Positions 477 to 16,997 of a DNA stretch of 64,000 nucleotides are shown in pieces (the first letter of the stretch is position 1; every line of letters starts with the position of its first letter). Below the pieces are notes generated by a model. That model did no database searches, was not told where the DNA came from, and was given only the letters and a program-made list of their open reading frames with translations. The DNA is taken from assembly GCA_951812645.1 (NCBI GenBank), contig CATOSM010000001.1:1529560-1593559 (forward strand). The letters are read 5' to 3'. The position numbers and the translations under genes are program-made. This stretch comes from an uncultured Candidatus Nitrosopumilus sp. (GTDB taxonomy: Archaea > Thermoproteota > Nitrososphaeria > Nitrososphaerales > Nitrosopumilaceae).

Positions 477-559
477 GATAACTTGCAGTCATAAGATAAT
501 AGTGATTTGGGACAAGTGATGAACAAACCTTAAATTTTAAGACTGCCTAGTTACTTGGA

Positions 560-766
560 ATGAATAAAACAATGATGACTTTTGCCATGGCAATTGCTTT
601 GGCTGCAGTGTTTGCAATTGCATCACCTATGGATACGGCAACAGCTCAAACCTCTGATGCCATGCCTGATGGTGAAGGTGGAGAATACAGGGATGGAGAA
701 GGCAAGGAAGGAAAGTCATGTCCTAGTAAAGAAGGAAAGATGCAGAATACAGAACGACTGACATAA
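560..766 (+). CDS. Small secreted acidic peptide
   Basis: A 68-aa protein with a clear Sec signal: Lys near the N terminus, a hydrophobic stretch over residues 8-22 and a likely cleavage after the Ala-rich segment near residue 29 (ATAQ). The mature part is short, rich in Gly, Glu, Asp and Lys and has a single Cys. Small secreted peptides of this style are common in marine ammonia-oxidising archaea. No function recognised. It would act outside the membrane. Confidence 0.6.
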   Translation: MNKTMMTFAMAIALAAVFAIASPMDTATAQTSDAMPDGEGGEYRDGEGKEGKSCPSKEGKMQNTERLT

Positions 767-1424
767 TTCCTGCAAAAATTTTTGTACGCTTGTTTTTACC
801 AATAATGATTCATTCAAAGTTAAATTTTGCGGGAATGTGTTGAGAATTACCACCATTCACACCTAGCTACAAGACAGATATCATGATTTTTTTAAAAAAA
901 ATAACTGATTGTGCTTTTTTTACGACATTACACTAAAAGAAAAGAAATGAAGATGCAAGCGTTGTGTCATGCATAGGACGTATAATTTTGCAAGCATGAT
1001 ATCTCTGTCGGGAGAAATGATCCTCAAGATGACTTGAGGGACTTTCAAGAGAAACAGACTTCTTGTCGTGTTGCATCTTCATTTGTGAATACGAATAATT
1101 ACTTCATAACATGTTTGGTACATTTTACCTATGTACCAGTGCACAGTTGAATCAAAAGATCCATGTGTAATTTTTTTATTTAGTAAAATTTCCTTCCCTG
1201 TGGGATTCACATGATTTGACTAGTACTCCGTCATGATCCTGAATTGTACATCCACAGGAGAAGATTACGTGCATTCCACTGTGTAATAATTAAAAATGCA
1301 ATAAAAGATGCAAGACAATAATTTACAATGAAATGTTAGAACTATTTTTTCATCAATTCACTATATAGAAATCGAAAAGAGTATAGATAAAGAATAAAGA
1401 AAAATCAGGTCCTCAATTAGTCGG
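767..1424. other. Non-coding interval with one hairpin
   Basis: No convincing ORF on either strand. A perfect 7-bp stem with a 4-base loop (CCTCAAG-ATGA-CTTGAGG) lies at 1022-1039. The last 150 bases are very AT-rich and probably hold the pstB promoter. Nothing else recognised. Confidence 0.4.
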
Positions 1425-2252
1425 ATGTTAAAAAGAGAGGAAACCACTTCGGCATTTTATCCAGAAGAACAGATATACAAACATGAATTCAACAAGCCTG
1501 ACAAAGTCAGAACGGATTCTTTGTCAATCTCATTTGGCAGTAAAAAAATCCTATCAGACGTGTCACTCAATTTCAAAGAAAATAATGTCACTGCCATAAT
1601 GGGACCATCAGGATGCGGAAAGACTGTCTTGCTAAGATTGCTGAACAGAATGCATGATATCAACAAGAGTGCAAAAGTCTCAGGGAAGGTGTTTTTTGAC
1701 AGTGTAAACCTGTATTCTGATTCATTTGATCCGTATCATCATAGGCAAAAAATAGGCATGGTATTTCAAAAACCAAATCCGTTTCCGACCATGTCCATTT
1801 TTGACAATGTGGTGGCAGGACTGAAGCTGAACGGATTGAAAGACAAGCACAGCCTGAATAAAATTGCAGAAAGATCCCTCAAGATGGCGTATCTGTGGGA
1901 TGAGATAAAAGACAGGCTGAACATGCCTGCAACGGACCTTTCTGGCGGCCAGCAACAAAGGTTATGCATTGCACGTGCGCTTGCAGTCAAACCTGACGTA
2001 CTGCTAATGGATGAACCGACTTCCGCATTGGATCCTGTTTCTACTGTGATGGTCGAAGATGCCATCAGGGAATTAAAAAAGGACATGACGGTAATCATGG
2101 TTACACATAACTTGGAGCAGGCAAAACGAGTGGCAGATCATGTCGTATTCATGTATCTTGGAAAGGTGATAGAGTCTGGCGATGTCAGACAAATGTTTGA
2201 CAGTCCAAAGGAAGAACTGACAAGAAAGTATCTTTCAGGAATTTTCGGATAG
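1425..2252 (+). CDS. pstB: Phosphate ABC transporter ATPase PstB
   Basis: This is the cytoplasmic ATPase of the high-affinity PstSCAB phosphate importer. Visible motifs are Walker A GPSGCGKT (about residue 60), the Q-loop GMVFQKPNPFP (about 112), the signature LSGGQQQR (about 172), Walker B VLLMDEPTSALDP (about 192) and the switch histidine in VTHN. The length of 275 aa is slightly above the usual 250-260 because of a leader of about 25 residues. A start nearer the core domain is possible, though the ATG at 1425 is the only clear one. The pstSCA partners and PhoU are not in this window, which is unusual but seen in archaea with scattered pst genes. Confidence 0.93.
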   Translation: MLKREETTSAFYPEEQIYKHEFNKPDKVRTDSLSISFGSKKILSDVSLNFKENNVTAIMGPSGCGKTVLLRLLNRMHDINKSAKVSGKVFFDSVNLYSDSFDPYHHRQKIGMVFQKPNPFPTMSIFDNVVAGLKLNGLKDKHSLNKIAERSLKMAYLWDEIKDRLNMPATDLSGGQQQRLCIARALAVKPDVLLMDEPTSALDPVSTVMVEDAIRELKKDMTVIMVTHNLEQAKRVADHVVFMYLGKVIESGDVRQMFDSPKEELTRKYLSGIFG

Positions 2253-2543
2253 CCAAAAATCTTAGTTTTTTGAGTCTTCTGAATCATCCCCACAAGTGAT
2301 TATGTCAAATTTAATAAAAAAATAATCCAAGTTAATTATTCATCTGACTTTGATTGCAATTTGTACATAAAGTCTGACAGAATCAAGGTTTCTTCGTTGG
2401 GATGTTTGTATTTTATTTTTTCATTCATGGTCACCACATGTAAAACGCATATCATGAATCTGTTCTATATAGATTCCAAAAACTCAATTCATTATGTAGA
2501 ATCATTGCAATTCTGTTTTATTGAATTATAGAATACTCTGATC

Positions 2544-2702
2544 ATGGATGCCACAATCTTCCTTGAGCAGAATAATGTTTCATTTTCAAGAATGTTATTG
2601 TCAAAAGAGATGGCAGATATCATAAAACAGATTGTTCGAGAGTCATCTACGCCTATTTATCTAGATTGCAATAACGGGAAGAATTCCAAAGGAAGGATGT
2701 AG
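2544..2702 (+). CDS. Small hypothetical protein, 52 aa
   Basis: A 52-codon ORF starting ATG-GAT-GCC and ending TAG. It lies alone in the 600-base interval after pstB. It has a helical N-terminal half (LLSKEMADIIKQIVRE) and an Asn/Lys-rich tail. No domain recognised. Codon use is like its neighbours, so a real small gene is plausible but unproven. Confidence 0.4.
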   Translation: MDATIFLEQNNVSFSRMLLSKEMADIIKQIVRESSTPIYLDCNNGKNSKGRM

Positions 2703-2703
2703 C

Positions 2704-2757
2704 ATGGCTAAGAATCCAAAGTTCCAATGCAGTCCAAACTGTTGGTGCAAAAAATAA
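2704..2757 (+). CDS. 17-aa Cys-rich micropeptide (possible)
   Basis: Begins one base after the stop of the 52-aa ORF and reads MAKNPKFQCSPNCWCKK. Three cysteines in CxxxCxC spacing suggest a metal-binding micropeptide. Such CSPNCWC-type peptides resemble other tiny Cys-rich ORFs of this lineage, but at 17 codons chance cannot be excluded. Confidence 0.3.
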   Translation: MAKNPKFQCSPNCWCKK

Positions 2758-2851
2758 AAATCTGAAAAAGATGTTTTTGTCAATTAACACTTATTCTTTT
2801 TTTAATTTTACAATGTCAATGAGAATGAAAGAAGAGTCATAGTGTAACAAT

Positions 2852-3232
2852 TTACTTCTTCTTTGACCACCTTCTCATCCATTCAAGTAAACCCGTAACT
2901 GATTCAATTAATTCCTGTCCTTTTTGAGTCAGTTTGTACTCCACACGAGGAGGAACCTCTGCAAATGTCTGCCTTTCTAATATTCCTTCAGAAACTAGCT
3001 CAGACAGTCTTGTAGCCAACGTCTTGCTGCTGATTCCCTTGAGGAATTCTTTAAACTGTTTGTGCCTTACAGGGTCTGTTGTGCAACACAGTGGAAACAA
3101 AATCTCAAGTGTTGCCCTTTTTGTAATTAAATCTCTGATTTTGGCCGTCTCTTTCAAGAGTTGGGATGCATCATAACCAGTAAACTCACACCTGTTTTGA
3201 ATAACTGGTAGTTTTTTTCCTTTAGTTTCCAT
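2852..3232 (-). CDS. HxlR-type winged-helix regulator (arsenic locus)
   Basis: A 126-aa winged-helix protein: ATLEILFPLCC, then a short helix, then SSKTLATRLSELVSEGILERQ (recognition helix about residues 69-82) and the wing with PPRVEYKLTQKGQEL. This is the HxlR/DUF24 layout. An adjacent Cys pair (about residues 49-50) and Cys14 could sense arsenite or redox state. It diverges from arsM across 63 bases holding a perfect dyad at 3275-3289, so autoregulation and control of arsM-arsC are likely (inference). A shorter start downstream cannot be excluded. Confidence 0.8.
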   Translation of the reverse strand: METKGKKLPVIQNRCEFTGYDASQLLKETAKIRDLITKRATLEILFPLCCTTDPVRHKQFKEFLKGISSKTLATRLSELVSEGILERQTFAEVPPRVEYKLTQKGQELIESVTGLLEWMRRWSKKK

Positions 3233-3263
3233 AATGACACTAACTGTAATGGTTTGTACTTGA

Positions 3264-3289
3264 CAACTTTAATAGTTTACATAGTAAAC
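3264..3289 (+). promoter_or_regulatory. arsM promoter with dyad operator
   Basis: A perfect inverted repeat GTTTAC-ATA-GTAAAC occupies 3275-3289, just upstream of the arsM ATG at 3296. An AT-rich box CTTTAATA (3266-3273) sits at about the archaeal TATA distance for a leaderless arsM transcript. A repressor bound to the dyad would cover the transcription start. The likely ligand is the divergent HxlR-type protein. Confidence 0.55.
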
Positions 3290-3295
3290 CATGAC

Positions 3296-4060
3296 ATGGA
3301 AAATTCAATCAAAGAAGACATCAAAAAAAGATATTCCAAGATAGTAATGTCTGGAAACGATGATTGTTGTTGCATGCCCGGAGAGTGCAAAACTGGAGAT
3401 TCTCCAGCTGATGCGACCAAATTGATTGGTTATGATCAAAAGGATCTTGAATCGATTCCCCAAGAGGCAATTTTGGGGGTTGGCTGTGGCGCTCCAATTA
3501 ATCATGCGGATCTAAAGGAAGGGGAGATTGTCGTTGATCTGGGTTCAGGAGCTGGAATTGATATTTTCTTGGCCGCAAGAAAAGTGCTGGATTCAGGAAA
3601 GGCAATAGGAATTGACATGACAGACCAAATGTTAGAAAAAGCAAGAGAAAATGCTGCAAAGGGAAATTATTCCAATGTTGAATTCAAAAAGGGAGACATT
3701 GAAGAAAACATTCCGTTAAATCACAATTCTGTTGATGCCGTTATTAGTAATTGCGTCATTAATCTGACAACAAACAAAACAAACGCATTCAAGGAAGTGT
3801 TTCGAATTCTAAAGAACAATGGAAGGATGGTGATATCTGATTTGATTACAGATGTGGAATTGCCTCTAGGACAAGCAAATTCAGACCAATGGTGTGAATG
3901 CATTGATGGCGCCTTGACAAAAGAAAATTATCTCACATGTATGAGAGAAGCTGGATTTGAGAAAATCGAGGTATTAGAAGAGCGAAATTACATGCAAGGA
4001 GAGAAAATTGACAATAGAAAGATCACCAGTCTGGTAATCAAGGCGGTAAAGCAATCCTAA
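3296..4060 (+). CDS. arsM: Arsenite S-adenosylmethionine methyltransferase
   Basis: Transfers methyl groups from SAM to trivalent arsenic. The start at 3296 (MENSIKED) is preferred over an upstream TTG-type extension because it lies right after the operator. The Rossmann SAM motif [13 protein letters not shown] is at about residues 79-91, and [10 protein letters not shown] follows. Cysteines expected for As(III) binding are present: GVGCGAP, SNCVINL and WCECIDG. An extra N-terminal Cys cluster CCCMPGEC (about residues 24-31) is typical of archaeal and bacterial ArsM. It is followed 14 bases later by arsC, so the two form an arsenic detoxification operon. Confidence 0.93.
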
Positions 4061-4074
4061 TGCTATGAGAAATA

Positions 4075-4470
4075 ATGAAAAAAGTTCTTTTTGTTTGTGT
4101 TGAAAATGCGGGGCGAAGTCAGATGGCAGAAGCATTTTTTAGAAAATACCTACCATCAGGATTTGAGCCAATCAGTGCGGGGACAAAACCTGCTGAAAAA
4201 GTAAATCTGATTGTCATACAAGCAATGAAAGAGATTGGAATTGACATTGAAAAAAACTCTCCACAAAGCATCTCACAGCAAATGATAGATGAGGCTAAAA
4301 TTGCAGTCAACATGGGATGCATGGATGAGGAGGCATGTCCTGCATTGTTTCTAAGGGATGTAACAGATTGGCAAATACAAGATCCCAAGGGAAAATCAAT
4401 CAAAGAGGTAAGGGAAATTCGTAATCAGGTAGAGCAAAGAGTCAAAGAACTAGTTTCACAATTACAGTAA
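4075..4470 (+). CDS. arsC: Arsenate reductase, LMW phosphatase type
   Basis: A 131-aa low-molecular-weight phosphatase fold. The catalytic P-loop CVENAGRS (CX5R, Cys8-Arg14) is near the N terminus and the general-acid region reads VTDWQIQDPKG. Cys79 and Cys84 (MGCMDEEAC) are placed as the resolving pair of the thioredoxin-coupled ArsC class. It reduces As(V) to As(III), which ArsM then methylates. It lies 14 bases downstream of arsM. Confidence 0.9.
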   Translation: MKKVLFVCVENAGRSQMAEAFFRKYLPSGFEPISAGTKPAEKVNLIVIQAMKEIGIDIEKNSPQSISQQMIDEAKIAVNMGCMDEEACPALFLRDVTDWQIQDPKGKSIKEVREIRNQVEQRVKELVSQLQ

Positions 4471-4522
4471 TCTTGAATGCTTGATTCTTTGATAATTTTA
4501 TCAATTGCCAAAAGCCTATTTT

Positions 4523-5341
4523 TCATTTAGAGAAATTCTTTGCCCATCCGCGTTCCATTAACTTAATTTTGGATTCGGGTTTCACGCATGCTTCTGTGTC
4601 GTCAGCTGCCTTTATTGCCCCAACCAGATTGTTTGGACAGATGTAAGTATCAGGAGGATACCCCCACATCTCTGCAATTAACTTTTGAGAATCTTTTGGA
4701 GTGATGACGTCATAGTAATCAGATTCCATCGGAGGCAATACATGAGGACATGTTTTGGCAGGAGGATCGTCAAGATTTTGTGGATGATAAGTTATGTTTA
4801 CCAGAAAATGGCTCACTTCGCCTTTTAGCTCAAAATCAAATGTAATGAACTCAGAGTCTCTGACCGGTTCAATTCTTTCCCATCCCATGACTGGATTTTT
4901 GATTATGGTATTTCCATGCTCATCCGTGGTTTGATGAAACTCGTTTTTTATCGAATAAAACGTGCTATTGTCATACATTCCAGGCCAGAACAAATCATTT
5001 GGAAACTTCATGCTGATTGGCATAGGGATATTTTCTTTGGGCAGAAAAGTGACGGTCATAGTGCAACTTCCAAAGGTTGTCTCACTCAGATGAGGAGACT
5101 TTTCAGTCTTGAAGAAAAAGTGCTTTTCTCCAAACGGCGACAAAGAGTAACGTTCTATGTAATATCCGCCATCAAGAAGTTTCCTTTCATTTTCTGGAAG
5201 AGAATCAACATCCATCCAAAATATTGCCTCAGACTCTGGAATTAATGCAAAAGATCCTGTAACACCGGCAATTACTAAAAAAACCAAGAACTTCAATTGC
5301 TTTGGATAAAATATGTGAGATTCATAAGTACTTCTCCCCAT
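4523..5341 (-). CDS. Membrane-anchored extracellular protein, unknown
   Basis: From the ATG at 5341 (MGRSTYESH) the protein has about 272 aa: one hydrophobic segment (about residues 17-33, LKFLVFLVIAGVTGSFAL), then a long polar, likely extracellular domain. The C terminus has CVKPESKIKLMERGWA, a Cys-plus-ERGWA ending seen in other secreted thaumarchaeal proteins. The reading frame stays open up to 5449, but that extension runs through the iteron region and a perfect palindrome, so the later start is preferred. Function unknown. Confidence 0.7.
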   Translation of the reverse strand: MGRSTYESHIFYPKQLKFLVFLVIAGVTGSFALIPESEAIFWMDVDSLPENERKLLDGGYYIERYSLSPFGEKHFFFKTEKSPHLSETTFGSCTMTVTFLPKENIPMPISMKFPNDLFWPGMYDNSTFYSIKNEFHQTTDEHGNTIIKNPVMGWERIEPVRDSEFITFDFELKGEVSHFLVNITYHPQNLDDPPAKTCPHVLPPMESDYYDVITPKDSQKLIAEMWGYPPDTYICPNNLVGAIKAADDTEACVKPESKIKLMERGWAKNFSK

Positions 5342-5355
5342 TACTCTTGAGAGAT

Positions 5356-5371
5356 AGCACAAATTTGTGCT
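5356..5371. promoter_or_regulatory. 16-bp perfect palindrome upstream of 5341 start
   Basis: AGCACAAATTTGTGCT is fully self-complementary and lies 15-30 bases before the proposed ATG of the minus-strand membrane protein. It may be an operator or a boundary feature between chromosome and casposon. No known consensus matched with confidence. Confidence 0.45.
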
Positions 5372-5429
5372 GTATACTTGCAAAACAACCTGCACGATCA
5401 GAGGATTTTTCGATAGTTTCGACAAAATC

Positions 5430-5589
5430 ACCGAATTGATAGGCATCATAGATCAAACTATCGGAAAGTTTCGGAACATTTTACCGAATTGATAAATTAT
5501 CTCACCGAATTGATACCGAATTGAAAACTTGATGTCTCCGAATTGATATTTCATTTACCGAATTGATAGTTCACACCACCGAATTGATA
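5430..5589 (+). repeat. Iteron array, ACCGAATTGATA x7, about 21-bp pitch
   Basis: Direct repeats begin at 5430, 5483, 5504, 5515 (ACCGAATTGA only), 5537 (first base T), 5557 and 5578. From 5483 on, start-to-start distances are 21, 11, 22, 20 and 21, that is whole or half multiples of two helical turns. The 5430-5483 gap contains decayed CGGAA-type motifs. All copies have the same orientation, as in plasmid or viral replication iterons. The array lies just outside the last gene of the polymerase operon, so it may be a replication or transposition site of the casposon. Confidence 0.75.
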
Positions 5590-5631
5590 AAAAATATCAG
5601 AAAAGCAGTCGTTCAGACTGCCTTTCCAACA

Positions 5632-5976
5632 TCAGTACCTGTTTTCGATGCTGTCCTTTCTTTCATTTTTGTAATGGTTGTACAACCACAATCCTCCAAA
5701 GATTGCAATCGTCGCTACACAAAAAATCAAGAAGGTCTTCACAATTCCAGAGTTTCCAGCAATGTTCACTCCTTTCACATCTTTGAGATATTTTGCAAAC
5801 TCTTCAGGCCTTTCCTTAAACTGTACAAAATTCTTCATGCTGTTTGCACGATAGGTCCTAGGTTTCTTGTCAGGTCCCCTTTCTCTGCTGCGAGGTTTTT
5901 TTCCAGCTAAGATATTTTCAGAGTCATCATAACTTTCAGCTGCAATTGCAACAACTTTGTTTTCATACATCATCAT
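5632..5976 (-). CDS. Small single-pass membrane protein of the casposon
   Basis: A 114-aa protein with a basic middle (KKPRSRERGPDKKPRT, about residues 26-41) and one transmembrane helix near residues 79-98 (VKTFLIFCVATIAIFGGLWLY). It overlaps the end of the polymerase gene by 4 bases, so it is the last gene of the five-gene minus-strand operon. A basic DNA-binding segment next to a membrane anchor suggests tethering of replication to the membrane, but this is speculation. No family recognised. Confidence 0.6.
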   Translation of the reverse strand: MMMYENKVVAIAAESYDDSENILAGKKPRSRERGPDKKPRTYRANSMKNFVQFKERPEEFAKYLKDVKGVNIAGNSGIVKTFLIFCVATIAIFGGLWLYNHYKNERKDSIENRY

Positions 5977-8744
5977 ATTACATCACCTCCCCTGGACATG
6001 ATGCTGCCAGTAATGATTTTCTCGATTGTCTTTTTGTGGAGTTTCAACACTCCATCTGTTTTGCATCTAATCCTCTTCTGCAATGAGATTAGGTTGCTTC
6101 TGGATATTCCAAACTTGTGGGAATCTTTGGGTCTGATGTTCAGTATCTTCTCTTCTAGGTTGTCATAGACAGTGCAACTATCCGAGTCTTCAGAAATGCC
6201 TAGAACATTAGATGCATCAAGGTTTGCGACTTCCTTTCCGACATATTTTATCAGATTCCTGTCTATTTTCATGCGTAATCTGGGCAACAATCCTGTATCT
6301 CCGCCTGACTTTGTCTCCTTGTGGCCTACATAGCCCTCCAACATTTCGCTCAATGGTTTCCAGTAGAGAGATGCATCAGAGTCAGAATATTTTTCTCCAG
6401 TTGTATAATCTGTAAATCCGATATACTGGATGTATTCTCTGCTCTTTGCATCAAGATATGGCAAGGTAGGAATTACCACATTGCCATTATCATCTGCTTT
6501 GCATCCTGCACCAACCAATATCTTGTTGAATGGTCGTAGTTTGGAGAATCTCTTCAAGACGTTTGGTGTAGTGATACTCATCTTGGATACAGCATATTGA
6601 TTATCATACTTGTCAAGTATCTCTTGTTTTCTTTCAGGAGAGTAATGCATTGCAAGTATGTCATGCCACCATCTCTTTTCATCAACATCCAACAAATATC
6701 CAAAACCATGAGATGTGAATTTGTGAATATCAAATCTATTTTCTATGTTATCATGTTCAAACAAGGTGTATCTCTTGGATGAAATTCCAAAAAATAAGAC
6801 ATTCTCCAATAGTTTCCCGTCATCTGATTTTTCAATCTTCATAATCTGCACATTGTTTTCGTATGGGTTTAGTTTCTGGAAAAATTCCTGAATCTCTGTT
6901 GCATGTTTTGGTGACACCATGATGGAATCAGTATCCATGTAAGCAACGTATCCGTCTCTGTGTGATGTAACCAAACTTTCCGCTGCTGCCAAAACCAATC
7001 TCGCTGCTGCAGGCAGGAACACTCCAAGTATCGGATTGAAATGCTTTGCAGGAACTTCCTTTCTTGCTAGAACATTTGGGTTTGCAGAAAATGGCTCATC
7101 AATTCCGTAAACAGTTACTGGTTCGTTTTGCTTTTCAGATTCAGAGTTTACCTGAATGTGAATACCATAGGATGCAGTGTTTGCAATTATCTTGATGGTG
7201 TTCTGTATTGTGGTATGTATTTCAGAATCTAGAAATTGTTTCATCTTTAGTCTCTTCTCAATTAGTTGTCTGATGAAATTCTCTTCTCTAGGATTTACTG
7301 CAACTCCTTGAAAAACATCTATTTTTTCATCAGGAATATTTTGCTGTATTCCTACGGGATGAAACGTAATTGCTTTCTGAATTGTTGGAGTATGGCCAGT
7401 AAGCAACTTTGAGGCTATCAAATCCGATAGCGTGTACCACAAGCTTGTCCCATCTGTGCTTTTGAGGTAGTTTACGCCTATGTTCTGGGTCTTTTTGGAG
7501 CCATATGAACAACGGACAGGCACAATCATGGAGCCGTCTGGCACTACCTTGCATATCGTGGCAAGTTGCTTCCACGTATCTTTTTGAGAAATGTCCTGCA
7601 ACATTATCCCATCAAGGAACTTCTGGGTTTGCTGTGTGGTATCGGAGGTTTCTATTTTTTCTGCTATCAAAAATGAATACATTCCCATCAATGAAAACAA
7701 GGTTGGATAGGTGGAGGTACAATCAAGGTAGGTTGCTGGAACGGGAGTCTTTCTGATTCGAGTTTCGACTCTTCCGCCATAGTATGCACTCATCAAGTTT
7801 CCTAGAATCTCTTTTGGAAACTCTGGATTGTTCTCCAATAATGGCTTTATGTTTAGTTTCTCCAAGTAGAGTTTACTGATAGATGCAGGTGAATACAACT
7901 TGTTTGCGTTATTTGGTTTTACCAAGAATTTATTTTCCAACACAGAAATAATGTTACAATAGAGTCTGTGTACGGTTAATGATTTCTCCATATTGTTTCT
8001 GATTGCATCTTCTGTGATTCCTTTCTTGTTTTTGAAATTGGAAGCAACACCAAATGTCTTGGCAACCTTATCAATTCCATCAAATGATTCATTGCTCATT
8101 GCATATCCCAAAGTTTTCAAATCAAGAAAGTATCCCCTATACACCTTGTGAGTTGGAATGTTTTTCTTTTCACTCTTGGTTCTTAGCGGAGTTGCAAACT
8201 GTATGAATGCTGCATCACTGTTTATGCTCTTTATCTTGATTGCAGGGAGACGTGGAATACCATCAACTAGTTTTATCGAGAACGCATCTTGAATCTTTCT
8301 TGCGGTTCCCCACGATGTTGCAAGTCTTGACAACTCATATGGCAAGTCAAAACCTACACACTTTGCCCTTGCCTCATAGATATACGGATAAAATACCTTT
8401 GTAACAAATTCGGTCTTTGCCATCACTAGGACGATGCAGTTTTTCTGTTGCTGTATTTTCTCGGCAATCTGTCTTATCAATTCGATTTTTTTTGGGTTTA
8501 GATTCTCGTCATGGAATAAAACAATCTTGTACAATGAGTCATTAATCCAGATTCCACAGGAGCCAAAGGTCAAGGATTGCTGTTGGTCGGATGTTGTCTC
8601 TGTGGATGGGGTCAACATCATTCCGTTGTTGACATTCTCATTATGGGAATGATGTTGGATAGGCTTGTAGTTCCCTGTGTAACATCTGAGACTGATTGGC
8701 CCCGGCTGGGGTGAATTGATCGCGCCTATTTTGCCCATTTTCAT
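5973..8744 (-). CDS. polB: B-family DNA polymerase (casposon PolB)
   Basis: 923 aa. Palm motifs are in order: YYGGRVETR (about residue 316), motif A YLDCTSTYPTLF (about 338), motif B KIIANTASYGIH (about 538), motif C YMDTDSIMV (about 627) and a KRYTLF element (about 687). An exonuclease-like region upstream contains VGFDLPYEL and YFLDLKTLGYAM with candidate acidic residues. The long N-terminal 100 residues and the roughly 200-residue tail are unassigned; the tail ends in a possible DNA-binding region (FGISRSNLISLQKRI). Literature on family 1 casposons describes protein-primed polymerases; whether this one needs a terminal protein is not visible. It overlaps the HNH gene by 4 bases (ATGA), indicating translational coupling. 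Confidence 0.92.
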   Translation of the reverse strand: MKMGKIGAINSPQPGPISLRCYTGNYKPIQHHSHNENVNNGMMLTPSTETTSDQQQSLTFGSCGIWINDSLYKIVLFHDENLNPKKIELIRQIAEKIQQQKNCIVLVMAKTEFVTKVFYPYIYEARAKCVGFDLPYELSRLATSWGTARKIQDAFSIKLVDGIPRLPAIKIKSINSDAAFIQFATPLRTKSEKKNIPTHKVYRGYFLDLKTLGYAMSNESFDGIDKVAKTFGVASNFKNKKGITEDAIRNNMEKSLTVHRLYCNIISVLENKFLVKPNNANKLYSPASISKLYLEKLNIKPLLENNPEFPKEILGNLMSAYYGGRVETRIRKTPVPATYLDCTSTYPTLFSLMGMYSFLIAEKIETSDTTQQTQKFLDGIMLQDISQKDTWKQLATICKVVPDGSMIVPVRCSYGSKKTQNIGVNYLKSTDGTSLWYTLSDLIASKLLTGHTPTIQKAITFHPVGIQQNIPDEKIDVFQGVAVNPREENFIRQLIEKRLKMKQFLDSEIHTTIQNTIKIIANTASYGIHIQVNSESEKQNEPVTVYGIDEPFSANPNVLARKEVPAKHFNPILGVFLPAAARLVLAAAESLVTSHRDGYVAYMDTDSIMVSPKHATEIQEFFQKLNPYENNVQIMKIEKSDDGKLLENVLFFGISSKRYTLFEHDNIENRFDIHKFTSHGFGYLLDVDEKRWWHDILAMHYSPERKQEILDKYDNQYAVSKMSITTPNVLKRFSKLRPFNKILVGAGCKADDNGNVVIPTLPYLDAKSREYIQYIGFTDYTTGEKYSDSDASLYWKPLSEMLEGYVGHKETKSGGDTGLLPRLRMKIDRNLIKYVGKEVANLDASNVLGISEDSDSCTVYDNLEEKILNIRPKDSHKFGISRSNLISLQKRIRCKTDGVLKLHKKTIEKIITGSIMSRGGDVI

Positions 8745-9238
8745 GCGTAATCTCCCTTCTCCATATTCAACGTCTGGTAGATTCTCTGGCGCAATTTCTT
8801 TGCCAATTCCCCATATGCACTGTATCCGGTCTTTTTGCCCTTGAGCATCAAAACATCATGAATCCCCATTAGCAAGAACCCGAGACGGACATTTTCTGGC
8901 TGGTCCTTTTGCAACCAACGAGCATCCCAGGTCTTTTGTAATTCACTCAACTCATAGTGGCATTTCTTGTCTACCGTAATGGTTCTGTAATCGTGTTTTC
9001 TTCCTGCAATGTGATGCAATTCTAAATTGTATGATTCCTCTTTAGAGTTACAAATCTCGCATCTGTTCTTCTTTTCCTGCATTGATTTGTTTTTGGGTTT
9101 TGTTACAATCTCATTTATCCACCCTTCAATCTCATCGATTGTATCTAGTGTATCGTCTCTGAGTTTGCCAATACAAAATCCCATCAAGGTTTGCAAACTG
9201 ACAGTTTTATTTACTAGAGTGGTTTCAGAATCAGTCAT
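8741..9238 (-). CDS. HNH endonuclease of the casposon
   Basis: 165 aa with a Zn-binding HNH core: CEIC (Cys60, Cys63), LELHHIAGRKH (His75-His76) and KKCHYELS (Cys93-His94). HNH nucleases are near-universal casposon passengers. It may nick target or element DNA, or act against other elements. It overlaps both neighbours by 4 bases, inside the polymerase operon. Confidence 0.85.
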   Translation of the reverse strand: MTDSETTLVNKTVSLQTLMGFCIGKLRDDTLDTIDEIEGWINEIVTKPKNKSMQEKKNRCEICNSKEESYNLELHHIAGRKHDYRTITVDKKCHYELSELQKTWDARWLQKDQPENVRLGFLLMGIHDVLMLKGKKTGYSAYGELAKKLRQRIYQTLNMEKGDYA

Positions 9239-9747
9239 TTTGTATTATACACCTCGTAGTATTCTGGTTCTTCAATTCTTTGATTGATTCTGATTATCTC
9301 ATCAGGGTTTGTCTCTAGTTTGTGTATCTTTCCTTTGCTGTCTTTTACTTTCTTGTTTCTGAACTTTGAGAGTTTGGATTTGTCTCCAGTGTTTAGGAAT
9401 TGTTTCACTGCATTGTGGTATCGTCCAACAACTGATGCAGTCCTTGAATCTCTAATCTCAACACTCTTTTCCTTTTTGTCAGTGTTGATTCTCATCACTC
9501 TTCTGATTCTGTCCCATCTTTTTACAACTGGTTTTCCATTTACTTTTTTGAAACCGTTTGTGTGTTTGATTACGTTCTTTACAGTAATGTTGTTGTCGTT
9601 TGCTGCTTGTGGCAGCGTCTTTGTTTTGCTGTTACGCAACTTACTAATCACTGCAAGTGATTTTTCGCGCAACATCTTTTGCCTAGGAGTTAGTTTCCTC
9701 CAGGGTCTTCTGTACAACGGTAGGGCCGTCATAGCGAGGGCCTCCAT
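9235..9747 (-). CDS. Basic protein, probable DNA-binding, casposon
   Basis: Up to 170 aa, very basic (many Lys and Arg), with a helix-turn-helix-like segment around LPQAANDNNITVKNVIKHTNGF (about residues 45-66) and a basic central region. A start at the sixth codon (MTALPLYRRPW, 9732) is as likely as the first. It overlaps the HNH gene by 4 bases. No named family recognised; a structural or regulatory DNA-binding role is inferred from composition and operon position. Confidence 0.6.
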   Translation of the reverse strand: MEALAMTALPLYRRPWRKLTPRQKMLREKSLAVISKLRNSKTKTLPQAANDNNITVKNVIKHTNGFKKVNGKPVVKRWDRIRRVMRINTDKKEKSVEIRDSRTASVVGRYHNAVKQFLNTGDKSKLSKFRNKKVKDSKGKIHKLETNPDEIIRINQRIEEPEYYEVYNTK

Positions 9748-9893
9748 TTACCGAAAACCTTTCGGTTCAAGTCATTCTGTGCAGAATGACATTTGGGACG
9801 CCTGATTCTATAATTTGGTATTCCCTTGGTGTATGTCCAACAATATTGGCAGTTAATGCAAACAACAGCAAATTGTGTGATTTTCTTTCTCAT
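9729..9893 (-). CDS. Short Zn-ribbon-like peptide, first gene of polB operon
   Basis: 54 aa from the ATG at 9893 (MRKKITQFAVV); an upstream TTG at 9914 lies inside the operator dyad and is less likely. CINCQYCW provides a CxxC knuckle, and the second knuckle is RRPKC, where the first Cys expected for a zinc ribbon is Arg, so metal binding may be incomplete. It overlaps the next gene by 19 bases. Small Zn-ribbon proteins are common in casposons. Confidence 0.55.
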   Translation of the reverse strand: MRKKITQFAVVCINCQYCWTYTKGIPNYRIRRPKCHSAQNDLNRKVFGKWRPSL

Positions 9894-9910
9894 TACTATA
9901 GTAGAGCGAT

Positions 9911-9957
9911 CCAAGACATATCACAAAGTATGTGTCTTGGGCAAATTCAAGACATAT
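9911..9957. promoter_or_regulatory. Divergent casposon promoter with dyad operator
   Basis: CCAAGACATAT (9911-9921) and ATGTGTCTTGG (9930-9940) form an 8-bp perfect, 10 of 11 overall inverted repeat, and CAAGACATAT recurs as a direct copy at 9948-9957. The site sits between the two divergent operons, 32 bases before the winged-helix gene at 9989. It is the obvious binding site for that regulator. Confidence 0.55.
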
Positions 9958-9988
9958 ACTCCACAACAAATACTAGATTTATTCAGAA

Positions 9989-10510
9989 ATGACCTCAAAT
10001 GACATTGATTTGCTTCGAAAAGGACTCACATCGGAGTATTTTCTAGCCTCATTTCTGGAAAAAGACCCTTCTGGGTACAGATTGGGACAGATAGTACAGG
10101 ATACCAAAGGCAAGCCACCAAACAGCAAGACGCTCTATCCATCATTGAACCAACTTCTAAAGACAAAGTACATTGTTGAAAAAAATGAAAAGTATTATCC
10201 AAATCTTACAAAACTAATCAACACCATGGATTCTACCCACATTCGTGATTGGCAGGAATCTCTTGATCCTGATGAGAAACAGGTATTGATAGAAATGCTG
10301 CAAAACAGGGAATTTTTCAAGGTAGTTTCAGATGAAATATTACGAACCATTCATGATCAACCAAACCGCATTCATAATATAGATGCGCTTGAAACAATTG
10401 CAAACAAGATTGGATTACTAACTGCTGCAATCATTTTGTATAGAACCAATACAAAACAAACTAATCAAGAATCACAAGAAAAATTTTCTCCTGAAAATGA
10501 TTTAAAATAA
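9989..10510 (+). CDS. PadR-like winged-helix regulator of the casposon
   Basis: 173 aa. The N-terminal half has winged-helix spacing: FLASFLEKDPSGYRLGQIV, then NSKTLYPSLNQLLKTKYIVEKN as recognition helix and turn, then a short wing (KYYPNLTKLI). This resembles PadR-type domains. The C-terminal half is helical and may dimerise. It is the first gene of the cas1-side operon and probably binds the dyad at 9911-9957, setting the balance between polymerase and casposase expression (inference). Confidence 0.65.
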   Translation: MTSNDIDLLRKGLTSEYFLASFLEKDPSGYRLGQIVQDTKGKPPNSKTLYPSLNQLLKTKYIVEKNEKYYPNLTKLINTMDSTHIRDWQESLDPDEKQVLIEMLQNREFFKVVSDEILRTIHDQPNRIHNIDALETIANKIGLLTAAIILYRTNTKQTNQESQEKFSPENDLK

Positions 10511-10537
10511 ATCAATGATGAACAGCAAAACTTCAAC

Positions 10538-10888
10538 ATGGTGTGGAATGAACAATTCATTCCAATGATGAAAGAGTTTGCGTTTGAAAGAAAACTATCA
10601 ACAAAAACAAAACAAACCCAAAAACAAATCACAAAAACGTACAAGGATGAAAAAAAGAAACAAAAATACTCTAAAAAGAAAACTCCAATTCAAAAATCAC
10701 CAAGCATGGCAGTTATTTCCGAGGCAATATTGATATTTCTAAAATCAATGCCTTCTTTGAGATTATTTCTATTCGTTCCTGAAAAAACATTATGGAAGTT
10801 GTGTAAATTGTGGGAAAGTTATGGCATGTTTGAATTTGTAACTAAATTTAATCAAGCATTTGAAAATCAAAACAAAAATTCTCAGTAA
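10538..10888 (+). CDS. Hypothetical basic protein between regulator and cas1
   Basis: 116 aa, with an extremely Lys/Gln/Thr-rich stretch (about residues 20-52) and then a hydrophobic helical part (AVISEAILIFLKSMPSLRLFLFVP). It lies 27 bases after the regulator and 26 bases before cas1, so it is co-transcribed. No family recognised. A terminal-protein or DNA-binding role could be considered because the element has a polymerase but no recognised priming protein. Confidence 0.5.
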   Translation: MVWNEQFIPMMKEFAFERKLSTKTKQTQKQITKTYKDEKKKQKYSKKKTPIQKSPSMAVISEAILIFLKSMPSLRLFLFVPEKTLWKLCKLWESYGMFEFVTKFNQAFENQNKNSQ

Positions 10889-10914
10889 ATTAAAATTGCA
10901 AAATCAAATAAATC

Positions 10915-12189
10915 ATGCACAAAGTTCTTGTATCATCAAGTAACAAAAGATGTACTTTGAATCCATTATTGATTACGGGTTTTGGAACTTCAATCAATGT
11001 GGATAAGAGAAAATTGATCATAACTAACAGACTAAAAGATACAAGGCTGGAATTTTATCCCCACACGATTAACCATGACGGAATAATCATTGATGGCCAT
11101 ACTGGCAACATCACGTTTGAGGCGATGAGATGGCTCTCAAAGCACAACATCAACCTGACATTGCTGAACTGGAACGGCCAGTTGTTGGCAAATGTCATGC
11201 CTGAGCAGCCAAAATCAGGTAAATTACGCGTAAAACAGTACCAAAAGTACCTTGATTCTACCAATAGATTTGAAATTGCTCTGAATATAGGACAAACCAA
11301 GGTTGAGCATTCCCTAAATTTGTTGGAGAAATTATCTAAATTCTACGAGTCTGTAGATTTTGTCAAAATCAGAAAATTAGCAGAAAAAGAAGATTTGTTC
11401 TTGTTGGATACAATGAAAAATAATGAGAGTCAGAACATTTCAAAATCAATAAAACAACTGATGACCTATGAAGGAAGAATAGCAAAAATCTACCATGAGA
11501 ATCTAATTGCAATTTTCAATGAATTGTATCCGGAGTTTAATTTTACAGGAAGAAAGAACAAGACAAACTCTAGAAACTATAATGCATCAGATGAAATAAA
11601 CGCCTTGCTGAATTATGGTTATGCTATACTTGAATCAGAAATTAGAAGAGGGATTAATTCAGTGGGGTTAGATTATTCCATTGGATTCTTGCATGAGATT
11701 AATCAGAGCAGAACTCCACTAGTCTATGACGTTCAGGAGTTGTTTAGATGGCTCATCGACATTTCTGTAATTCAATTACTTGAAGAAAAGAAGATCAAGA
11801 AATCCGATTTTATAATTACAGAGAATTATCACACTAGACTAGGTGAAGACGTTGCAAAGTTGTTAATTGAAAAAATTAATTCAAACTTTAATGCCAGATA
11901 CAATTACAAGAATGGAAAGAATTATTCATATCAAGTTATCTTGCAAGATAATTTACAACAGTTGTCTAATTTCATAGTAGGTAAGAAGAGAGAGTTTGAT
12001 TTTGTTATTCCTAAAATGAAACTGATTAGAAATGATAATCTTGAATTAAGAGAGAAGATTTTGAATATGACCCCTAACGAGAGAAAGCAGCTAGGAATCA
12101 ATAAATCCACATTATGGCATATCCAGAAAAATTTGTCTGAAGGTAAAACCCCTAAAATTTATGAAAAAATTCTTTTAAAAATTCAATAG
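10915..12189 (+). CDS. cas1: Cas1 casposase (integrase of the casposon)
   Basis: 424 aa, longer than CRISPR Cas1 because of an extra C-terminal region. The N-terminal beta-domain is followed by the catalytic all-helical domain: active-site Glu in MTYEGRIAKIYHENL (about residue 184), INALLNYGYAILESEIRRG, His in SIGFLHEINQS (about 263), and the acidic pair in LVYDVQELFRW (about 276-280). The last about 40 residues (MTPNERKQLGINKSTLWHIQ) form a helix-turn-helix, a casposase hallmark. It catalyses integration of the element into target DNA. No cas2 is nearby, which supports casposase rather than a CRISPR adaptation gene. Confidence 0.93.
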   Translation: MHKVLVSSSNKRCTLNPLLITGFGTSINVDKRKLIITNRLKDTRLEFYPHTINHDGIIIDGHTGNITFEAMRWLSKHNINLTLLNWNGQLLANVMPEQPKSGKLRVKQYQKYLDSTNRFEIALNIGQTKVEHSLNLLEKLSKFYESVDFVKIRKLAEKEDLFLLDTMKNNESQNISKSIKQLMTYEGRIAKIYHENLIAIFNELYPEFNFTGRKNKTNSRNYNASDEINALLNYGYAILESEIRRGINSVGLDYSIGFLHEINQSRTPLVYDVQELFRWLIDISVIQLLEEKKIKKSDFIITENYHTRLGEDVAKLLIEKINSNFNARYNYKNGKNYSYQVILQDNLQQLSNFIVGKKREFDFVIPKMKLIRNDNLELREKILNMTPNERKQLGINKSTLWHIQKNLSEGKTPKIYEKILLKIQ

Positions 12190-12213
12190 ATTTGTATTTG
12201 AATCATGACTACT

Positions 12214-12267
12214 GTCGGATAAAATGTCGTGAATTAAAATAGACATTTTTTGGAACAATTATCCAAC
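12214..12267. repeat. Nested inverted repeat after cas1
   Basis: Outer arms GTCGGATAA (12214-12222) and TTATCCAAC (12259-12267) match at 8 of 9; inner arms AAAATGTC (12221-12228) and GACATTTT (12242-12249) are perfect. It begins 24 bases after the cas1 stop. It could be a transcription end structure or part of the right casposon terminus. Confidence 0.5.
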
Positions 12268-12316: not shown

Positions 12317-13648
12317 ATGGGAGAATGTCATAGATGTTATGCTAAATTAGAATCACAATTAACAGATTCCTTGCATTGTTTAGATTGCGAACAGGATCTA
12401 AAAAACGGTAATAGTTGTGATGTTTGTGATAAACCGAAATTTAGAAATCTTTGGGATCCATTTTTCTATTATCAAGTTCCAATGATGAATGATGGGATTG
12501 AAATTTTGCTTGAAAAAGGTAAAGCACATCATCTTTGCGCATTAGCACTTGTAACTTATACTGAAGTAATGGGCGGTTTAGTCACAGGTAAATTAAAAAA
12601 AGAAATTGGCGCTTCAAAATCAAACTTTGAAGCATTTCTTCCATATTTAGGTGAAAAATATGTTAAATTAAACGAAAATTTCGATATTTACAAAGATGTA
12701 CGAAGCAAATTAGTACATGAATTTGCACCAAGGATGTCTCATGGAATTTGGTTAACTAAAAACGCATTAGATTTTAGAATTGGGATTGAATATAAAACAA
12801 AGCATTTGAATTTCCACCTTAGAGAATATTATCGAGATTTCAAAAAGGGTGTTGAAACATACAAATTAGAATTAGAAAATGATAAACAGAATCCAAAAAT
12901 CTTAGAAAATTTTCTTAAAGCAACAGATGATTCTATTAAAGATGAAATAATTGAGAATAAAATTCCAATACCTACAGATAATCTTAAACGAATTTCTGAA
13001 GGATGCAAAAATCACGTATTTTCTTTACTTGAAGAAGCAACAAATCAACATAATAAAGAAAAATACAATCTAGCAATATTTTTGACAATTATTGCTTTAG
13101 AAGAAACAAGTAAACTTGCAGTATATTATGATCACATACGACAATTAAAACCTGTTTCAGTTAGAATGCAAAAAAGATTAACTGAGCACAATTATAAAAT
13201 TTTTAAAATCTTTAAAACAGAAATAAAAAATAATAAGAATATTTCAACTAAAGATGATCTTTTAATTCCAAAAATGTTGGGTAGTCTAAATTTTGTTAAA
13301 CAATTTATTTTGTATTATGACCAAATTGGTAATACAAACATGACATTAAATCAACATTTTTTAAAACATGATATGACAAAGAACAATTTGGGTCATTACT
13401 CAACATTTCTTTGGAGGTTTACGAATATTTTATTTTTATCTGAATTACTAAAAATTGATTTTGCAAAATCTGATGGAAATGTATATTCTGATTCAAATGT
13501 GTATAATTCTGAAATTTATAAAACTATTCAGATACGAATTAATGAATTTACAAACAATGATCTTCCAGGTTCTGAAAGTAAAGCCCTTTTTGTCATTGAT
13601 GAATTAAAATCACTGGCATCAAAATTTGATATGTTTATTGATTATTAA
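12317..13648 (+). CDS. Zinc-ribbon / AbiV-like fusion protein
   Basis: 443 aa. The N terminus carries three CxxC pairs (Cys4/7, 21/24, 34/37), a treble Zn-ribbon. The middle is helical. Around residues 230-300 is an AbiV-like core: NKEKYNLAIFLTIIALEETSKLAVYY followed by LTEHNYKIFKIF, matching the AbiV pattern of a helix with LAI-ALEE-K and a later H-x2-K motif. AbiV proteins are abortive-infection factors related to HEPN folds. The gene stands alone just outside the casposon with lower GC than the chromosome. The Zn-ribbon may sense nucleic acid (inference). Confidence 0.6.
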   Translation: MGECHRCYAKLESQLTDSLHCLDCEQDLKNGNSCDVCDKPKFRNLWDPFFYYQVPMMNDGIEILLEKGKAHHLCALALVTYTEVMGGLVTGKLKKEIGASKSNFEAFLPYLGEKYVKLNENFDIYKDVRSKLVHEFAPRMSHGIWLTKNALDFRIGIEYKTKHLNFHLREYYRDFKKGVETYKLELENDKQNPKILENFLKATDDSIKDEIIENKIPIPTDNLKRISEGCKNHVFSLLEEATNQHNKEKYNLAIFLTIIALEETSKLAVYYDHIRQLKPVSVRMQKRLTEHNYKIFKIFKTEIKNNKNISTKDDLLIPKMLGSLNFVKQFILYYDQIGNTNMTLNQHFLKHDMTKNNLGHYSTFLWRFTNILFLSELLKIDFAKSDGNVYSDSNVYNSEIYKTIQIRINEFTNNDLPGSESKALFVIDELKSLASKFDMFIDY

Positions 13649-13917: not shown

Positions 13918-14511
13918 TTATTTACTCTTTATCTGTTGCAAAATTTGAAGAACTTCCTCATTTTTTTCAGATAATGTGGCTCTATTTTCTATTGCACTGC
14001 CATGTTTAATTAAATCTGGTTTATGCATAGGATAATAGTCAGTAAGAAGCCAATATAGATCCTTTAATGACAATTCTACCCGTGCTTTGTCTTTAGCTGG
14101 AAGATTTTTCCATTCATTAAGATAAATTCTTGTGAAACGTATTATGTCTCTAATTTTTTCATGATTTTCTTGGAAAAAATAGTCAATTTCAGATATAACT
14201 TCGGATTCCATTTCTTCCGAAGCTGGTCTTCTTGCAGTTTTTGTTAATTTTGCAAAGAGTTTACTTCCTTCATTCAGATTTTCTACAACTGTTTTTCTAG
14301 CATGTTCCTCTTCACGTTTCCTTCTCTTTTTATCTAAAGCATAAACCAGAACACCTACAAGTGCAGTAGCTACAATACTCAATACACTCCAGAAATTTGT
14401 TGTTAGCTCAGTGATTATCCAATCTACTGTTCCCACAATATTTGCCCATGTGATAACGGTATAAAGATTTTCAATCAATTCATGATCGTAACTCCTAAAA
14501 TCGGCTGACAT
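13918..14511 (-). CDS. Membrane protein, second gene of unknown operon
   Basis: 197 aa with one strong transmembrane helix (about residues 39-58, FWSVLSIVATALVGVLVYAL) followed by a very charged coiled-coil-like stretch (DKKRRKREEEHARKTVVENL) and a helical cytoplasmic domain. It overlaps the 252-aa gene by 37 bases. The pair resembles sensor plus membrane effector modules of phage defence, but no known family is recognised. Confidence 0.6.
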   Translation of the reverse strand: MSADFRSYDHELIENLYTVITWANIVGTVDWIITELTTNFWSVLSIVATALVGVLVYALDKKRRKREEEHARKTVVENLNEGSKLFAKLTKTARRPASEEMESEVISEIDYFFQENHEKIRDIIRFTRIYLNEWKNLPAKDKARVELSLKDLYWLLTDYYPMHKPDLIKHGSAIENRATLSEKNEEVLQILQQIKSK

Positions 14512-15233
14512 ACATTAAAGAAAAAATCATCCCATGATTCAGATGGAATATTTTGATAAAATCTTAATTCACCACGTTCATTGATTTCAAGTGGTTTGAA
14601 ATCCATGGCTTCGTCATCTAGTAATCCTCTGCATTGAATTAACCTCATAATCGGATATGTATTATCTGACTTTTCTAAAATTTTTTTATATTCTGCATCT
14701 TCAGTTGCACATTCCGTTGGACTACGCTCAAACCCTTGCCTGCTTCTATTTTTATAACGATTCGAAGTGGTATCAAATCTTGGATCTTCTACACAATTTT
14801 TTTTATGAAATCCAAGTAATTTATTTTGTAATTTAATTATTTTTTCTTTTGGAATATCAAATGGTAAAAAATATCCCTCCTGTGAATCATGAATAATTGC
14901 TGAAATCATTCTTACTATAATGTCTCTTTTTGAAGAACCGTGAACTAGTAAAATTTTTTTTCCTTTTGATATTGTAAAAGAGATGTCTGAAGGCTCTAAA
15001 TGTGTTTTATCTGAAAATTTGTTATCTTTACATCTCACCCATAAACGTGCAGTACTTGATACCCCAAAACCATTTTCATCTGCTTTAATTTCTAACGACT
15101 CTAAATTTACTCCTTGTCTTCGAACTACTTTTGTTCTTATAAGATCGATCTTATTTTTACTGTTTATTTTTTCTATTATTTCAGACTCATCTACCCCATG
15201 AGGATATTTGTAAATCTTAATAGATTGTACCAT
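14475..15233 (-). CDS. Unknown protein, first gene of two-gene operon
   Basis: 252 aa, soluble, no signal or membrane segment. A mixed alpha/beta N-terminal half contains SISFTISKGKKILLVHGSSKRDIIVRM-like content (GKKILLVHGSS around residue 92), followed by a basic linker rich in Arg, Lys and Ser (about residues 155-172) and a charged C-terminal part. It is the upstream partner of the membrane protein with a 37-base overlap. Family not recognised. Confidence 0.6.
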   Translation of the reverse strand: MVQSIKIYKYPHGVDESEIIEKINSKNKIDLIRTKVVRRQGVNLESLEIKADENGFGVSSTARLWVRCKDNKFSDKTHLEPSDISFTISKGKKILLVHGSSKRDIIVRMISAIIHDSQEGYFLPFDIPKEKIIKLQNKLLGFHKKNCVEDPRFDTTSNRYKNRSRQGFERSPTECATEDAEYKKILEKSDNTYPIMRLIQCRGLLDDEAMDFKPLEINERGELRFYQNIPSESWDDFFFNVCQPILGVTIMN

Positions 15234-15371
15234 ATTTACAATATTCTAAGACAATTATAAAAATTAGAAACAAATTCCCTTAAGAAATTGGTTTGAAAAT
15301 GTTTTACAATAAATAGTGTACAAAAAATATTTTTTTCTTTATTTATTTATCATAAGTTCATTTTTTGATTT

Positions 15372-15463
15372 CCACGTGGGTGTACTTTCTCTCTCCTTGA
15401 CTATATCCCCAGCACAACATGCATGGGGTTATAGTTAAAGAAGTAAAAATCATATCCACGTGG
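15372..15463. promoter_or_regulatory. Structured intergenic site: stem-loop between two CCACGTGG palindromes
   Basis: CCACGTGG occurs at 15372-15379 and 15456-15463. Between them a 14-bp stem (12 of 14 pairs; 15397-15410 with 15425-15438) encloses a 14-base loop. The symmetrical layout in a gene-free gap of 280 bases suggests a protein-binding region or a small structured RNA. No known family assigned. Confidence 0.45.
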
Positions 15464-15513
15464 AATAAAGAATCAATGAGTTTAGAATACAAGTAGACTT
15501 TAAATCATTAATT

Positions 15514-15705: not shown

Positions 15706-15869
15706 ATTCTAATTATGATATTTGTATTGATATTGCATAGGTTATAGTAATATAACTACATAATTTCAAATTAATTTTAGAAATCAGTCTTTACAAAATA
15801 AATTATATTTTAAATATGAGATATAAGGTAATGTTAAAAATATAATATTTTGATTAATTGGTTGATATC

Positions 15870-16997
15870 ATGGAAGAAAATATTTGGAAACCAAAAAAAC
15901 TTTGGAAATTTGGATTGTTTTTAGGTGCAGGAGCGTCTGTTTGTGTCAATAAACCAACTACAAAACAATTCAAAGAGAACATGGTTAATTATTCTCCCGG
16001 ATCACAAGACGAAGAAATATTACAATCATTTCTTCAAATGTATGAATTCAAAGATATTGAATATGTTCTACAAGCAATAAAGGACATCAAAAATTTTTCT
16101 GAAAGCAATGGCGGAAAATACTTGAAAAAGATGCAAGAAAATAACAAACTAACGTTTAATTTGCTTAATAATCGATTCTCGGAATTTTCTAAGAAAATTA
16201 ATTCAATTGAGAAAGTATTGGTAAAGAAAATCTTTGATGAGTATCATTGGAAAAAGAATGACTCAGAAATACTTCAAGATGTCCATTATGAAATCATGAA
16301 TTATCTTACTCGTTTAGGAACACTGGCAGTATTTACAACAAATTATGATAATGCAATTGAAGAATTGTGTGAAGAGCACTATGAAGAATTCAGATTGATT
16401 GACGGATTTGTACGTAATCCCTCAGATAGAAATTTCAGTATTTGGGAAGGAGACTTTTCTGACAAGGAAAACAGAAATCCTGCTAGAAACAACATAAGAT
16501 ATTACAAATTACACGGTTCACTTAATTGGAAACATCACGTTATTCATGGAATAGTTAAAACGAACGAAGAATCAATTTCCCTTGATTCAAAATTTACTGA
16601 AAACGTATTGATATTTCCCACATTGTCTCCTAAATTAGAAGAAAAGGCAGAACCTTTCAAGACATTGATATCTGAATTTAGAAAAAGACTCTTTGAATTA
16701 GATTCATGTATTGTTATAGGGTTTTCTTTTCGAGATAGCATGAGTCAAATCTTTAAAGATTTTCTAATGGACAAAGGATCTTTGGTCATAGTTTCTCCTT
16801 CAGGCTATGAGGATTTTATGAAAAATGTTGCTCACATTGAGAAACCAAAACAAATCAAGAAAAAAGTAATTTGTGTGGAAAGATTATTTGATTCAGAAGT
16901 GGATTTGCACTTTATTCAAACAGAAGTATCTCCAAGAAATGGTTTTACTATTGTGAAGCAATTGATGAAAGTGTATGGAAAAATATACAATGATTGA
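15870..16997 (+). CDS. SIR2-like NADase-type defence protein
   Basis: About 375 aa. Rossmann-type SIR2 motifs are in order: FLGAGAS (about residue 17), FTTNYDNAIEE (about 154), YYKLHGSLNW (about 212) and CIVIGFSFRDSMSQIF (about 280). This is the SIR2_2-like class found alone or with partners in anti-phage systems, where NAD depletion kills the infected cell. The ATG at 15870 is preferred to an upstream TTG at 15858. No Argonaute or helicase partner is adjacent, so it appears as a stand-alone gene. Confidence 0.8.
   Translation: MEENIWKPKKLWKFGLFLGAGASVCVNKPTTKQFKENMVNYSPGSQDEEILQSFLQMYEFKDIEYVLQAIKDIKNFSESNGGKYLKKMQENNKLTFNLLNNRFSEFSKKINSIEKVLVKKIFDEYHWKKNDSEILQDVHYEIMNYLTRLGTLAVFTTNYDNAIEELCEEHYEEFRLIDGFVRNPSDRNFSIWEGDFSDKENRNPARNNIRYYKLHGSLNWKHHVIHGIVKTNEESISLDSKFTENVLIFPTLSPKLEEKAEPFKTLISEFRKRLFELDSCIVIGFSFRDSMSQIFKDFLMDKGSLVIVSPSGYEDFMKNVAHIEKPKQIKKKVICVERLFDSEVDLHFIQTEVSPRNGFTIVKQLMKVYGKIYND

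Follow-up and report, generated by a model that had tools for sequence, protein, structure and literature searches.

A casposon, probably of family 2 and incomplete, in a defence-rich island at tRNA-Arg of a Candidatus Nitrosopumilus genome

Casposons are transposons moved by a Cas1 enzyme. The stretch of DNA analysed here (64 kb in full, the window) contains an element which, judged from its sequence, is a real casposon. It is very probably an incomplete member of family 2 that lies inside a 74-kb island, rich in defence-like genes, at a tRNA-Arg gene. The DNA itself shows one terminal inverted repeat (TIR), one copy of the target site duplication (TSD) and the point where a second element joins, and it shows the target motif at neighboring and related sites.

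Genes and limits of the element

Gene prediction and profile searches placed the core genes in two divergent operons. The gene set of the preliminary description, that is, cas1 with a C-terminal helix-turn-helix (HTH), PolB, HNH, a basic protein, a Cys-rich peptide and a PadR-like winged helix, was recovered in full.

54..5449: DoxX, PstB paralogue, HxlR, ArsM-like, ArsC-like and 308-aa proteins, probably cargo on the polB side or else genes of the island
5431..5587: iteron array, CCGAATTGA(TA) repeated seven times in direct orientation; the same repeat lies beside p114/polB in L126, L134, L158 and L131
5632..5976, minus strand: p114, small, basic, with a hydrophobic C-terminal segment; kept beside polB
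5973..8744, minus strand: polB, 923 aa; palm motifs A/B/C intact, acidic residues of Exo I/II/III lost, C-terminal HTH
8741..9238, minus strand: HNH nuclease-like protein; weak HNH matches, position conserved among relatives
9235..9747, minus strand: basic core protein, predicted N-terminal HTH-like fold (three-helix); fold match weak, Z at most 5.1
9729..9914, minus strand: Cys-rich (Zn-ribbon-like) peptide, 61 aa
9989..10510, plus strand: PadR-like winged-helix regulator (E 0.011); homologues in L134, L130 and L126
10538..10888, plus strand: p116, lysine-rich
10915..12189, plus strand: cas1 (casposase); catalytic E, H, D, E kept, C-terminal HTH
12317..13648, plus strand: HEPN-AbiV family protein, cargo on the cas1 side
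13918..14511, minus strand: probable membrane protein, 197 aa, cargo
14475..15233, minus strand: 252-aa protein, cargo
15370..15410, minus strand: right TIR of the casposon, outer end ...TATATCCCC; profile score 47.0 (random maximum 15.5)
15411..15424, plus strand: 14-bp TSD AGCACAACATGCAT
15425..15465, plus strand: TIR of a second, tandem element running rightward; profile score 44.2
15858..16997, plus strand: SIR2 protein of the second element; shares 41% identity with a cargo protein in casposon locus L140

The Cas1 protein matches Pfam Cas_Cas1 at 2e-57, and the ATG of its relatives aligns with the codon at 10957. No cas2 was found within 200 kb of cas1, and the three cas2 genes of the genome are each paired with other cas1 genes. 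The Cas1 is solo, as had been proposed, and has no CRISPR partner. A cas1 of this kind adjoining polB, together with one TIR and a TSD, upholds the earlier casposon call.

The iteron array noticed earlier at the polymerase end is also real. All of its seven copies are on one strand with none elsewhere in the 64 kb, and random windows gave a mean of 0.58 copies and a maximum of 3. The array is conserved and is one of the new features of this lineage. Further out on the polB side, at window 3254-4470, ArsM-like methyltransferase and ArsC-like reductase genes adjoin the HxlR regulator.

The TIRs were scored with a profile built from the TIRs of other genomes, and 60 random windows served as the null (top score 15.5). 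The two high scores set the right end of the element at 15410 and the start of the second element at 15425, and the order from 15370 to 15465 is TTCCACGTGG...TATATCCCC, the TSD AGCACAACATGCAT, and then GGGGTTATAG...CCACGTGGAA. The limits first given to the element, 5430-12267, are consequently too narrow on the right, where the TIR lies 3 kb past 12267 and the HEPN-AbiV gene is taken in. The statement that TIRs are lacking fails at the cas1 end, beyond the limit then claimed, and holds so far at the polB end. The junction check advised for a 14-15 bp target duplication yielded the 14-bp TSD in one copy; a second copy for this element was not found.

A left TIR was found neither in the 64-kb window nor in the 40 kb leftward by inverted repeat, pattern and profile searches, so that the term "complete-looking" lacks support. 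A weak profile score of 4.3 at window -1082 is within the noise. A 452-bp piece at window -4314 to -4765 (92% to element E4 of G021, see below) was rejected as proof of the reach of the element, because it is a closer match than the elements themselves. The missing left TIR indicates a copy that is incomplete or rearranged on the polB side, and the element probably continues leftward of 5430. Since the polB-side TIR is not recognisable, this copy, in which the cas1 and polB reading frames are open, is probably unable to move as a unit now.

The island at tRNA-Arg

The surrounding island of ~74 kb extends from window -13939 to 60022 (G000:C1 about 1515621-1589581) and is absent from seven relatives. 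In these, three genes, those for a DNA glycosylase, tRNA-Arg(TCT) and a 198-aa protein, lie next to one another, with small insertions in two; in the window genome the same neighbors are split by ~74 kb. The casposon thus lies inside an island that its relatives lack. The empty-site comparison suggested previously therefore showed that these genes do not belong to the ancestral chromosome; what the relatives lack, however, is the island and not the element alone. The features of its right part are:

52033..52049, plus strand: leader motif of the casposase GTTCAAATTTTGTTAGG, TCAAATT at -15 to -9
52050..52063, plus strand: TSD-like AGCACAGTGTGCAG
52064..52104, plus strand: decayed TIR of a third element; profile score 27.8 (random maximum 15.5)
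58801..59058, minus strand: casposon-type cas1 relic
60022..60097, minus strand: tRNA-Arg(TCT), right island edge; 9-bp repeat GGGCCCACT, with a further copy near window -13939 at the left edge

The island encodes AbiV, SIR2, AIPR, three AbiE pairs or halves, an SF1 helicase-nuclease and TIR-STAND; IS fragments and remnants of other casposons are present as well. G017, too, has a casposon beside the same tRNA-Arg. Elsewhere in the window genome, further casposon ends are located at G000:C1 705291, 720095 and 894001 and at C6:902, and a degraded polB at 712917-715100 (G000:C1).

Alternatively, a larger integrative island at tRNA-Arg, dependent on another enzyme for its movement, could carry these genes as passengers, with the casposon part a dead relic. 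The island edges, which bear the 9-bp repeat of the tRNA-Arg end and are unlike a casposon TSD, agree with this, as do the missing left TIR and the decay of the third element and of the cas1 relic. However, cas1, polB, HNH and the regulators remain open frames, the right TIR and the TSD are well kept, and no integrase of another type was identified among the island proteins scanned. The passenger explanation is somewhat doubtful, though of real weight. A relic and a nested element are both compatible with the explanation preferred here, an incomplete family 2 casposon within the island.

Tandem arrays and target sites

The related complete chromosome G021 (OX638319.1) carries six family 2 casposons in tandem, E1 to E6 (L054-L059, G021:C1 1415231-1524000), and the TIR-TSD-TIR type of junction occurs there five times. 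In 4/6 elements (E2 to E5), the identical 14-bp TSD AATAACATTGTGCT is found on both sides; the TSD copies of E1 are inverted, perhaps by an inversion between TIRs, and the right end of E6 was not found. Both TIRs are present in E4 and E5. E4 measures 20,468 bp, has cas1, polB and the TIR and TSD of either end, and serves best as a complete model of the window element. A complete-looking 15.9-kb casposon in another genome (L060, G036:C18 616-16515) has a Cas1 of the same clade and a different TIR (108 bp); a TIR of the type seen in the window comes immediately after it.

The family 2 casposase of A. boonei recognises TCAAATC at -15 to -9 and accepts ends in TCCCC (PMC6614799). Upstream of the element ends studied here stands GTTCAAATTT-N5-GG and then AGCAC, which puts TCAAATT exactly at -15 to -9, for instance at window 52035 and at related sites. 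No leader was found beside the window element itself. The leader motif has 43 matches in 13/60 genomes of the genus and the reversed pattern none. The leader is followed by a TIR at 29/29 testable sites, and conservation begins sharply at its first base.

The leader sites resemble the 3′ end of a tRNA. Insertion into tRNA genes is usual, not universal, in family 2, and at L054, L089 and L068 the leader sites gave no tRNA gene with ARAGORN. Targets that mimic a tRNA 3′ end without being a tRNA gene appear to be another new feature of this lineage. At L174, L179 and L182 (G000, G015, G034), ~190 bp before the leader are conserved and the further flanks differ; this piece is possibly an RNA gene or the end of another element.

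The strict leader in 13/60 genomes, the TIR behind every testable site and the sharp start of conservation could mean that the landing pad belongs to the casposons, which would bring it along or remake it: the leader and TSD would then be made at, or moved with, the element end and not found in the chromosome. This reading is weakened by the region upstream of the PpiC gene, which holds two insertions: at the site orthologous to the G036 insertion, a degenerate leader-like sequence is still present in G012, which lacks the insertion, at about equal distance from the PpiC gene. We regard the landing pad as unlikely, and so, to the same degree, its analogy with a CRISPR-leader-like unit on a transposon.

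It is very improbable that the element and its cargo are a domesticated defence locus and not a transposon. The cargo and the island are indeed rich in HEPN-AbiV, SIR2, AIPR, AbiE and TIR-STAND genes, but the TIRs, the TSD, the patchy distribution and the tandem arrays fit mobility, and a CRISPR or cas2 partner is lacking.

Family assignment and comparison with known casposons

The window casposon is best assigned to the tRNA-targeting family 2 and not to family 1. In an alignment over residues 2-398 that takes in the C-terminal HTH, the Cas1 of this element matches the M. mazei casposase 6OPM (E 4e-66). 6OPM is itself a family 2 casposase, as its HTH supports. In a tree of 37 Cas1 sequences (A. 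boonei Cas1 left out), the window Cas1 groups with 6OPM (support 99/97), and the Cas1 proteins beside EF-2 in relatives fall in a separate 100/100 group. The HTH is conserved across the Cas1 clade and is common to Cas1 and PolB (38% over 52 aa, E 5e-7). The core further includes a weak-but-consistent HNH and two HTH proteins, namely the PadR-like winged helix and the HTH-like basic protein (Z 5.1), and the TIRs end in TCCCC, the family 2 end type. HTH domains on Cas1 and PolB, an HNH and two HTH proteins are the recorded traits of family 2 (PMC4046053, PMC9939771).

A genome scan located the Cas1 clade in Nitrosopumilus, Nitrosarchaeum, Micrarchaeota, Thermoplasmatota and Aenigmatarchaeota, among others. 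The order cas1, basic protein, HNH, polB is retained in most loci holding these genes (about 20 loci, several archaeal phyla). No relatives were found in viral contigs and phage records.

The original assignment to family 1, that is, a Nitrosopumilus casposon with decayed ends, finds favor in the host genus and in the literature, which ties Nitrosopumilus casposons to that family, but it is scarcely credible, because the same-genus family 1 loci L213 and L215 have a Cas1 of 338-340 aa without HTH, set apart in the tree, and a PolB of 593-618 aa, with cas1/polB of L213 adjoining EF-2, and the window element shows neither the ~600-aa protein-primed PolB nor the HTH-less Cas1 nor the EF-2 site of family 1. 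EF-2 was rejected as the target, the EF-2 of the window genome being >1 Mb away.

In the PolB of the window, motifs A (DxxSxYP), B and C (DTDS) are intact. Alone it has no Pfam polymerase match; the PolBs of its relatives match DNA_pol_B or DNA_pol_B_2. Relatives also retain Exo I (DTET), Exo II (NLPFD) and Exo III (D). In the window PolB and its four closest relatives, Exo I reads STET, TSET, STEV, ATET or GTET, Exo II is replaced by DLPYE and Exo III by EK/ER, and from these changes we infer that proofreading has been lost. The loss of all three proofreading motifs from several PolBs is a new feature of this lineage, and a polymerase that has apparently lost proofreading would make self-copying of the element error-prone. 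Motif C, used for the PolB_CDTDS group, is YCDTDS or CDTDA in most relatives and YMDTDS in the window and its closest relatives.

The class signals of this highly divergent sequence are split. The PolB model (mean pLDDT 76) has phi29 polymerase as best match (Z 15.5, rmsd 4.4 over 497) and an archaeal PolB as second (Z 12.5), and the profile search leans weakly to the RNA-primed Pol alpha and archaeal PolB. This mixture agrees with the A. boonei casposon PolB, which falls in a group akin to both PolB classes (PMC7544198).

The preferred explanation, an incomplete family 2 casposon within the island, is supported by the Cas1 tree and the 6OPM match, the shared HTH and the conserved core order, and further by the TIR/TSD/junction, the six-element array of G021, the leader counts, the TCAAATC and TCCCC of A. 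boonei and the absence of the island from relatives. Against it are counted the left TIR, the second TSD copy and the adjacent leader, all absent for the window element, a PolB too divergent for clean assignment, and leader sites without the tRNA gene of most family 2 members.

From these features the mobility of the element, its error-prone copying and the role of its iterons may be inferred. Cas1 would join the ...TCCCC ends to a site read through TCAAATT 9-15 bp upstream, and a 14-bp stagger would give the TSD. Repeated insertion at the regenerated site could then build tandem arrays. The element would be copied by its own PolB without proofreading, the HTH common to Cas1 and PolB may bring both to the same element DNA, and the iterons may mark an origin or regulatory region.

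The CRISPR adaptation module is proposed to derive from casposons. The layout of G021, that is, leader, repeat, element, repeat, element, is a large-scale counterpart of a CRISPR array, and its casposase motif spacing is the same as measured in A. boonei. The cargo ties casposons to defence islands. The lineage also shows family 2 spread in Nitrosopumilus and several other archaeal phyla, in contrast to the family 1 of the genus literature.

Compared with AciBoo-C1 and other family 2 casposons (Aciduliprofundum, Methanosarcina; 6OPM), the likeness includes the HTH on Cas1 and PolB, the HNH and HTH core genes, the TCCCC termini, TCAAAT(C/T) at -15 to -9 and the 14-bp TSD. The differences are sites that mimic a tRNA 3′ end with no tRNA gene found there, the loss of the PolB exonuclease motifs, the presence of iterons, and a length of up to ~21 kb in complete relatives versus the 6-16 kb reported. 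NitNCS1-C1 of Nitrosotalea, reported as the first thaumarchaeal family 2 casposon (PMC6563490), is, as compared by description, a family 2 element in the same phylum, but its polB is fragmented, it sits in tRNA-Pro and its host is not Nitrosopumilus. NitAR1-C1, NitNF5-C1/C2 and other family 1 casposons share with the window element the host genus, the Cas1 integrase and TIR with TSD, and differ in their protein-primed PolB of ~600 aa, their Cas1 without HTH and their EF-2 target.
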